DNA of 64,000 nucleotides from Alphaproteobacteria bacterium (GTDB taxonomy: Bacteria > Pseudomonadota > Alphaproteobacteria > Rickettsiales > SXRF01), in assembly GCA_020049775.1 (NCBI GenBank), contig JAGVLO010000003.1, positions 62,001-126,000 on the forward strand, given 5' to 3'. Below are positions 55,562-59,313 of the stretch, one piece after another. Position 1 is the first letter of the stretch; each line of letters starts with the position of its first letter. The position numbers and the translations under genes were made by a program. The notes below the pieces were generated by a model. That model did not search any database. It was not told the origin of the DNA and saw only the letters and a program-made list of their open reading frames with translations.

Positions 55562-55930
55562 TCACACCGCCTTGGCCACCTTCAGCTTGGGCTTCAGGCG
55601 GGCGGGCAGGTGTACGGTCTGACCGTAGTGGTCGTAGCACGGGGAGTAGACCCGCATCGAGATGTCTTCGTGCCACGAGGGCGCGACGACGATCTTGATC
55701 TCGGTGTCCGGGTCCGTAGCCACGATCTCGATCGTATTATCGATCGCGATCAGCTCCGAGCCGCTGTACTCGCCGTTGACCTTCCAGCCACCGTAGAGGC
55801 CGTTGAACTGGTGAACAGTCCAGCGGGTTTGCCACCCAAACTGACGCCCGAGGGTCGTCGGTTGGGTGCGGGTGAAACGGAGGTCGAAGACGTCATGCGT
55901 CTCGACACTAACGAAGAGCCACGCAAACAT
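55562..55930 (-). CDS. Unknown protein, cassette family (cassette 2)
   Basis: A 122-residue soluble protein, paralogous to the one at 56288-56647. Shared features are the start MFA, the V-x-D-x-R-x-T core, PTTLGRQFGW, QFNGLYGGWKVNGEYSGSE and a following beta-rich half. The spacing and residues suggest a small beta-barrel or sandwich. G/C-rich third positions contrast with the AT-rich spacers. The start follows CGGGAGACTGGA. No family is recognised. Confidence 0.65.
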   Translation of the reverse strand: MFAWLFVSVETHDVFDLRFTRTQPTTLGRQFGWQTRWTVHQFNGLYGGWKVNGEYSGSELIAIDNTIEIVATDPDTEIKIVVAPSWHEDISMRVYSPCYDHYGQTVHLPARLKPKLKVAKAV

Positions 55931-56287: not shown

Positions 56288-56647
56288 TCACGCCGTGACC
56301 GTCTCGTCCAACTCCTCGACGGGGTTGAACTCGAGCAGCATGGGCGCGTCGTACACGCCGAAGTCGTACAGCGACACGCTGTCCACCACGTTGCCGTCGG
56401 CCGTCAGGCTGAAGCGGTGCGTGATGAGCATGTTGTTCGCGACGACCTCGTTGCCGACGGTGAGCGGGATCTCGGTGGATCCCGTCTGCTCGCCGTTGAT
56501 CGTCCACGCGCCGTAGTGGCCGTTGAACTGGGCCACGACGAAGCGCTCCTTGTAGCCCAGCGAGCGGCCGAGGGCCGTGGGGGCGTACTTGGTGACGCGG
56601 ATGTCGTGGACTTCGTAGCTGCGCACGTTGTTGAAGATCGCGAACAT
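56288..56647 (-). CDS. Unknown protein, cassette family (cassette 3)
   Basis: A 119-residue paralogue of the cassette 2 protein, starting at ATG 56647 after GAAAGGGG; a longer upstream frame is not used. Conserved core: MFA, VHDIRVTKYAPTALGRSLGY, QFNGHYGAWTINGEQTGSTE. It ends in an acidic tail (EFNPVEELDETVTA). G/C-rich third positions again. A two-hairpin leader (56677-56700 and 56721-56732) precedes it and matches the leader of cassette 4. Confidence 0.65.
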   Translation of the reverse strand: MFAIFNNVRSYEVHDIRVTKYAPTALGRSLGYKERFVVAQFNGHYGAWTINGEQTGSTEIPLTVGNEVVANNMLITHRFSLTADGNVVDSVSLYDFGVYDAPMLLEFNPVEELDETVTA

Positions 56648-56676
56648 CGGACAGACCCCTTTCGAGAGTCGTAGGC

Positions 56677-56732
56677 ACCACACTTGTATTGGTGTGTGGT
56701 TTACCATCTAGTAACAGGTCCGGAACTTTCCG
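56677..56732 (-). promoter_or_regulatory. Two-hairpin leader of cassette 3
   Basis: Arms ACCACAC and GTGTGGT (56677-56700) and CGGAA/TTCCG (56721-56732) precede the start by 30-85 bases. Both hairpins recur before the next cassette, at 57045-57069 and 57086-57100, with changed but compensating bases. Confidence 0.6.
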
Positions 56733-58191: not shown

Positions 58192-58296
58192 GGCGGAAGC
58201 CTCCGGTTTTAACGTTTTACAGGTGCATTTAAGGGGGCGTTGCCGCCCTTGTCCATATTTTTTTAATAATTTGCTGCCCTATCTAATTTTGGCCCC
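58192..58296. other. Spacer between thyX and the tmRNA promoter
   Basis: It holds the thyX promoter and a partial G/C hairpin (GGGGGCG...GCCGCCC near 58230-58250) followed rightward by seven T residues. There is no rightward gene for that to end, so I leave it unassigned. Confidence 0.4.
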
Positions 58297-58325
58297 TTCA
58301 CAAACCCAAAGTGAAGACCTATACT
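58297..58325 (+). promoter_or_regulatory. Promoter of the tmRNA gene
   Basis: TTCACA at 58297-58302, a 17-base spacer and TATACT at 58320-58325. The expected start near 58332 is the first base of a UUCG-capped hairpin. Confidence 0.65.
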
Positions 58326-58331
58326 ATAAGT

Positions 58332-58655
58332 GCTGCCTTCGGGCGGCTATGGTGATAAACGCAGTTTGGAATAAACGGATTGGACCCGGGGGCAGTACCC
58401 GGCGGGTCCACCAAGCCGCCGGAATCGACGGCTTGGTGGGCCCGAATAGGCTCGACAAACGTAATAAAGAAATTGTTTTTACCCGGGATGATTCCGTCGA
58501 TACTCGGATCAAAACTTTAAATGCCAACGACAACGTTGCATTTGTTGCAGCTAACGACAACGCAGTCGTAGCAGTTCGCGCCGCAGCCTAATTGGCGGGT
58601 GTGAGCTCTAGCTCGTAACGCGGCCGGGGGTGCGCCGGGCAACAGAAGCCCCCCA
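58332..58655 (+). ncRNA. ssrA: Two-piece (permuted) tmRNA
   Basis: tmRNA rescues stalled ribosomes. The order is permuted as in alphaproteobacteria. The acceptor piece comes first, about 58332-58413: a GCTGCC-TTCG-GGCGGC hairpin, T stem CCGGG/CCCGG with loop GGCAGTA, acceptor strand CGGGTCC and then ACCA. A removed spacer of about 24 bases follows. The coding piece starts at 58438 with GGGCCCG, which pairs with CGGGTCC. The tag reading frame is 58523-58591 and ends in TAA. The outer ends are approximate. The long rightward open frame across this region is not a protein. Confidence 0.92.
58523..58591 (+). other. tmRNA tag reading frame (22 codons plus stop)
   Basis: The frame begins GCC AAC GAC AAC (ANDN), repeats GCT AAC GAC AAC nine codons later, and ends R-A-A-A then TAA. 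The resume codon is taken as the first GCC because it follows the usual TTAAAT context. If the second copy were used, the tag would have 13 residues. Confidence 0.75.
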
Positions 58656-58830
58656 CTTACTTATTGTTCTAGCAATATATTATAGCAATATTCTACCCGT
58701 GTCGCGCCTGTCTCAGGGCCAAAGCATGTTTTTTCCTGTGTCCTGATGACAAATCGCCGCTTGCTGCTATACTGTGTAGCTAAAGCATTTTACGCTATAA
58801 AACGCATTTTTGACAGAAACCATAAGTATC

Positions 58831-59313
58831 ATGACCAAAGACGTGCTTCATTATTCAACACTGATAGACCAGGCTATGCGCGGAGTGGTGCGCGACGTGC
58901 TGAAACAAATCAGCCGCGCCGGACTTCCGGGCGAACACCATTTCTACATTTCCTTTTCCACCGTGTTTCCAGGTGTGCAGATATCGGAACAGCTGAAAGC
59001 ACGCTATCCGAAGGAAATCACCATTGTGCTACAGCACCAGTTCTGGGACTTCAAGGTGGATGAACGTATGTTCACGGTCACGCTCAGCTTTGGCGGTGTA
59101 CCGGAAAAACTGGTAATTCCGTTTGCGGCTTTGACCGCCTTTGCTGACCCCAGCGTCAAGTTCGGCCTGCAATTCCAGCAGGAAGAAACCGAGGCAGTTG
59201 AGTCGGAGTCCATGGACCTGCTGCAGGATCTCGCGCCCAAGGCGGCGGATAATGTGCCGGGCGATGACAGCACTGCTGAAATCATTTCGCTTGATTCCTT
59301 CCGCAAGAAATAA
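58831..59313 (+). CDS. sspB: ClpXP adaptor SspB (alpha type)
   Basis: SspB tethers ssrA-tagged proteins to the ClpXP protease. The 160-residue protein starts at ATG 58831; a TTG seven codons upstream is in frame. The tag-binding domain covers about 1-115 (HHFYISFSTVFPGVQISEQLK, ITIVLQHQFWDFKVDERMF, FGGVPEKLVIPFAAL). The C-terminus ends in the short ClpX-binding tail (EIISLDSFRKK). It stands 175 bases after the tmRNA gene. Confidence 0.9.
   Translation: MTKDVLHYSTLIDQAMRGVVRDVLKQISRAGLPGEHHFYISFSTVFPGVQISEQLKARYPKEITIVLQHQFWDFKVDERMFTVTLSFGGVPEKLVIPFAALTAFADPSVKFGLQFQQEETEAVESESMDLLQDLAPKAADNVPGDDSTAEIISLDSFRKK

Follow-up and report, generated by a model that had tools for sequence, protein, structure and literature searches.

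The tmRNA tag is usually viewed as a short single-site degron, and the locus analyzed here raises the question of how a tag that carries the ANDN motif twice is built, how it came about and how it might be used by the adaptor SspB. In the window, i.e. the whole 64,000-nucleotide stretch of DNA that was analyzed, a reading of the letters alone (the sequence-only reading) had recognized a tag frame with ANDN occurring twice and followed by R-A-A-A, and this frame was confirmed by ARAGORN, Rfam and the sequence itself. The Rfam covariance model RF01849 (alpha_tmRNA) matches at 58293-58657 with 226.4 bits (cut-off 50), RF04321 (tmRNA_permuted) also matches the locus, and with ARAGORN and RF04321 permuted tRNA-like halves with an intervening sequence are present. 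The tag extends over 22 residues from the GCC resume codon (codons at 58523-58588, stop codon TAA at 58589-58591), ends in A-A and, read as ANDNVAFVAANDNAVVAVRAAA, has the layout ANDN, five residues, ANDN, five residues and RAAA. The pattern AACGAYAACN{9,39}GCNAAYGAYAAY matched once in the window and not at all in 100 dinucleotide shuffles, so that chance alone would not be expected to produce the doubled arrangement. As read from its sequence, the tag corresponds to a normal 13-residue tag preceded by an additional module of the SspB type (Table 1).

Table 1. Positions of the tmRNA gene, the parts of its tag and the adaptor gene in the window.
Feature	Positions	Strand	Basis
Permuted (two-piece) tmRNA gene, ssrA	58320..58682	+	ARAGORN tmRNA*; Rfam RF01849
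A at -4 of the resume codon, corresponding to A86 of E. coli	58519..58519	+	Sequence
Tag frame ANDNVAFVAANDNAVVAVRAAA + TAA	58523..58591	+	Sequence, ARAGORN
N-terminal module ANDNVAFVA, extra copy	58523..58549	+	
C-terminal module ANDNAVVAVRAAA, with the length of a normal 13-residue alphaproteobacterial tag	58550..58588	+	
SspB adaptor gene	58831..59313	+	PF04386, E 1.6e-46

Because the two 27-base units of the tag, which agree at 16/27 positions overall, do so at only 5/15 positions outside ANDN, the doubling is old, and ANDN alone has been held. Every readable tmRNA of the window's family (14/14, i.e. 13 relatives and the window) encodes a doubled tag of 22 residues with a period of 9, and a tag identical to that of the window is present in two genomes of another genus (G003 and G008). 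Where close relatives are named, they are uncultured genomes filed under Rickettsiales, Alphaproteobacteria or Pseudomonadota bacterium. Beyond the family, most sampled families of the order have doubled tags with periods of 5 to 18, and tags with a single motif (13-16 residues) occur in five. Based on the low identity outside ANDN and the doubled relatives, two of them with the identical tag, we rejected a recent tandem duplication or an assembly artifact private to the window's genome, the probability of which we regard as negligible. The sequence-only reading had taken the tag to be unusual for its organism while noting that a form shared by relatives would speak against this; the comparison revealed that all 14 tags of the family are doubled, and that the form is common to most of the order and recurs elsewhere. 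Accordingly, the doubled tag is an old, repeatedly evolved variant and not a local oddity.

The length of the tag depends on where translation resumes, and the sequence-only reading had allowed that resumption at the second GCT would give a normal 13-residue tag. In E. coli, the main determinant of the frame is A86, which lies four bases before the resume codon (PMC2481249). We compared 29 doubled tags, 25 from the window's order and four from family f138, all chosen by motif; the first ANDN has an A at its -4 position in 29/29 of these and the second in 5/29. In relatives, the resume-site profile amounts to ~22 bits at copy 1 and ~6 bits at copy 2, and the Rfam alignment places the resume codon at the first GCC. 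That the second module alone already has the length of an ordinary tag would suit resumption at the second GCT; however, because the A at -4 precedes copy 1 throughout and copy 2 rarely, and Rfam agrees, we rejected this start on its upstream context and consider a 13-residue product very unlikely.

In 23/29 doubled tags, 13 residues separate the second ANDN from the C-terminus (11-15 in the others), the motif-to-motif distance in the same tags varies from 5 to 18, and single-motif tags elsewhere mostly have 10-13 residues. Because the C-terminal distance is nearly constant, the motif spacing is variable and single-motif tags have these lengths, the second half corresponds to an ordinary tag and the first half to an added module. 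Within copy 1, D3 and N4 are invariant in 29/29 tags of the motif-selected set, with GAT/GAC used 14/15 times and AAC/AAT 23/6 times, and they are likewise invariant at the residue level, with varying codons, in the 14/14 family tags, a set that was not selected by motif. Because the residues are fixed while the codons vary, copy 1 looks constrained as a peptide and not as RNA only; copy 1 overlaps the resume region, and part of its conservation may be at the RNA level. Overall, both copies of the motif look constrained at the protein level, an interpretation that is weakened by the motif-based choice of the 29 tags.

The main rival to alternative docking is that the N-terminal module acts mainly as a spacer, such that a longer unstructured tag would let ClpX engage buried ends while ANDN would be a relic of the RNA near the resume codon. 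Several long tags indeed keep the initial GCN-AAN without D3/N4 (ANKK, AKTT, AKSY) and carry the motif only nearer the C-terminus, and with E. coli proteins, lengthening the sequence ahead of ALAA improved degradation in the absence of SspB (PMC8512704). Against this, a pure spacer would not need the D3/N4 that the family keeps while its codons vary, and we consider this possibility unlikely.

The adaptor gene that the sequence-only reading had assigned next door to the tmRNA is indeed there (Table 1). The core of its product matches PDB entries 2nys, 2qas and 2qaz (E 1e-34 to 1e-39), and its C-terminal tail ISLDSFRKK, presumed to bind ClpX, is conserved. SmpB (PF01668, E 4.6e-58) and ClpX (PF06689, E 9.6e-20) are encoded elsewhere in the genome. 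As a separate observation, two neighboring frames on the minus strand of the window (55562-55930 and 56288-56707) encode similar short proteins (..VHD.R.T...PT.LGR..G..) that look like tandem paralogues.

In a PF04386 search of genomes with a readable tag and good completeness, an A-N-x-N-type motif was present in 48/49 SspB-positive vs 2/12 SspB-negative genomes, which were picked with their tags known and of which the negatives represent about four families only, so that p-values for this association overstate independence. SspB was found in 32/32 tested genomes with multi-motif or long tags (completeness at least 90%), and 10/12 of the genomes lacking SspB have short tags without the motif. 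Ten loci with short tags lacking ANDN, such as ANESYALAA, AKSDYAEYALAA and ANDDYAELALAA (L161, L162, L175, L177, L215, L239, L258, L272, L279 and L305), are all from genomes without detectable SspB. The co-occurrence agrees with the motif serving as the SspB site. Thus, the doubled motif emphasized by the sequence-only reading holds up, with both copies looking protein-constrained and the motif tracking the presence of SspB.

The same reading had taken the adjacency of the two genes as a hint that binding and delivery changed together. Among 106 loci for which both genes were recovered by ARAGORN and a protein search, tmRNA and SspB are on the same strand in all 106; the SspB start lies <1 kb 3' of the tmRNA in 95/106, the genes abut or overlap by a few bases in eight, and they are 1.3-2.2 kb apart in three. 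Because 79/95 of the close loci have tags in which the NDN motif is not doubled, adjacency is a general feature of the Alphaproteobacteria examined and uninformative on doubling, and we rejected it as a sign of co-change. Comparing SspB of doubled-tag genomes with that of others, we found no striking change that matches the doubled tag, and only six clade-typical substitutions, which are confounded by phylogeny, distinguish the former.

The sequence-only reading had suggested that each tagged protein would gain two SspB sites. If both copies are docking sites, one SspB dimer with its two grooves, or two dimers, might occupy both ANDN simultaneously, resulting in avidity. The residue-level conservation of both copies in 29 genomes and the presence of SspB in all tested genomes with multi-motif tags and a completeness of 90% or more would agree with such bivalent docking. 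On the other hand, a period of 5 to 18 residues fits poorly to a fixed geometry and, with about seven residues per site, a period of 9 leaves about two residues as linker. Moreover, in E. coli eGFP-AANDENYAANDENY, which has two AANDENY in tandem (period 7), the KD for SspB did not change significantly, i.e. the doubled degron gave no gain in affinity, and the authors suggest that two SspB cannot bind it at once (PMC8512704). Simultaneous binding of two SspB is, therefore, doubtful, and we regard bivalent docking as improbable.

Our working hypothesis is instead that the two sites are used one at a time. Translation would resume at the first GCC, adding the 22-residue two-module tag. SspB would dock on the ANDN of the C-terminal module ANDNAVVAVRAAA, an ordinary tag, and the final residues of this module would enter ClpX over the usual distance. 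The other module, ANDNVAFVA at the N-terminus, would be an additional docking sequence of the SspB type that selection has kept. While the inner site would be used in the ordinary register, the outer site would offer another dock on a longer tether and thereby make productive delivery more likely, and similar tags would have arisen separately in other lineages. What the data show directly is the gene, the tag with its conservation and spacing, and the presence of SspB, SmpB and ClpX; we infer that SspB docks singly on each of the two copies and that this brings a benefit. Taken as a whole, we consider it fairly probable that this gene is a working alphaproteobacterial two-piece tmRNA, the two-module tag of which offers two alternative SspB docks used singly, and that the doubled form is ancestral to the window's family and held across most of the order.

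To place the doubled tag in the class, we read tags from 181 genomes outside the order, leaving six ambiguous ones unread. In this sample, which holds most low-scoring tmRNAs and in which unusual tags are, therefore, over-represented, tag lengths were 9-15 residues in 150 genomes, 20-25 in 14 and 29-32 in 11. The order adds tags of 18-24 residues and one of 33, so that lengths group into 9-16, 18-25 and 29-33 residues, and the number of A-N-x-N motifs is one, two or, in some cases, three. Outside the order, long multi-motif tags (18-33 residues overall) occur in about 15 families. Two motifs were present in 0/155 short tags. Among distinct long tags, extra A/C/S/V-N-x-N motifs were found in 19/19 from the order, against at most 8 in shuffles, and in 20/25 from outside it, against at most 11, and some long tags have three motifs. 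In several long tags, e.g. ANKKFVPANNNNAFALAA and AKTTKARRVTAANRNTVIGVRVAA, the first motif has decayed and one that lies 11-14 residues from the end is kept. At six loci (L167, L183, L184, L193, L198 and L234), the tag has 29-33 residues and contains A-N-x-N-like repeats in two or three copies, e.g. ANSNVANGNSVGATGGFAAFAPANGNFAAVAA, and several of these tags are arginine-rich. Of note, 10/17 matches to the doubled pattern in the class are not tmRNA, including L070 of G210. Genome G306 (L218) has three alpha_tmRNA matches above the cut-off, perhaps extra copies or a mixed bin. The survey corrects the assumption that doubling is peculiar to the window's genome.

A tree of RpoC fragments from 57 genomes, i.e. 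a quick tree from one gene, implies at least six changes of tag state, four of which are forced by well-supported branches. The window's order forms one clade (support 100) with both doubled and single tags inside, and a second clade (support 98) of small-genome lineages holds most of the other multi-motif tags. Family f138 stands apart, outside the order, and has a tag (ANDNAQFVAANDNFVV...) that resembles that of the window; this likeness may reflect convergence, transfer or tree error. The four f138 loci (L066, L067, L068 and L160) have doubled tags close to the window's (ANDNxxFVAxNDN). A single deep origin of all multi-motif tags had been suggested by a 28-row RpoC tree with one mis-read row (G018) but did not hold up once single-motif families were added. 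The history likely comprises at least two separate gains and some losses. We more tentatively propose, as an idea that we would at present sooner doubt than adopt, that alphaproteobacterial tmRNA tags evolve by whole adaptor-binding modules, that multi-motif tags arose more than once and occur solely where SspB is retained, and that doubled sites represent two successive SspB docking registers on one substrate.

Tags of Ehrlichia and Anaplasma in tmRNA databases have two ANDN/ANDD-like motifs in about 20 residues with other spacing, and similar tag sequences probably already sit unremarked in databases. Searches of the open literature found no description of doubled tmRNA tags. A 2025 tmRNA database paper gives 10 amino acids as the commonest tag length and two as the shortest, and searching its text by term revealed no passage on duplications or repeats within tags. 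Conserved, recurrent multi-motif tags suggest selection on tag length and on the number of adaptor sites in large uncultured alphaproteobacterial groups, and such tags represent natural test cases for how docking distance and site number relate to ClpXP delivery.

Among known systems, the window's tag resembles the engineered E. coli AANDENYAANDENY degron in having two SspB motifs in one tag (PMC8512704), and the extended DAS+4 tags of E. coli in that the SspB and ClpX elements are spaced further apart (PMC8512704, PMC9382460). These degrons differ in that they are artificial, have a period of 7 and involve E. coli SspB, and the tandem version is without a ClpX-binding end. The adaptor itself belongs over its core to the same family as SspB-alpha (PF04386; PDB 2qas and 2qaz from Caulobacter, 2nys from Agrobacterium) and shares the conserved SLDxFRKK tail, deviating by the six clade-typical substitutions only. 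Finally, the locus is like the Caulobacter-type two-piece tmRNA (RF01849) in its permuted gene, GCN resume codon, ANDN start, alanine end and the SspB gene just downstream, and is unlike the usual RF01849 tags of 9-16 residues in that its tag has 22 residues and a second ANDN module.
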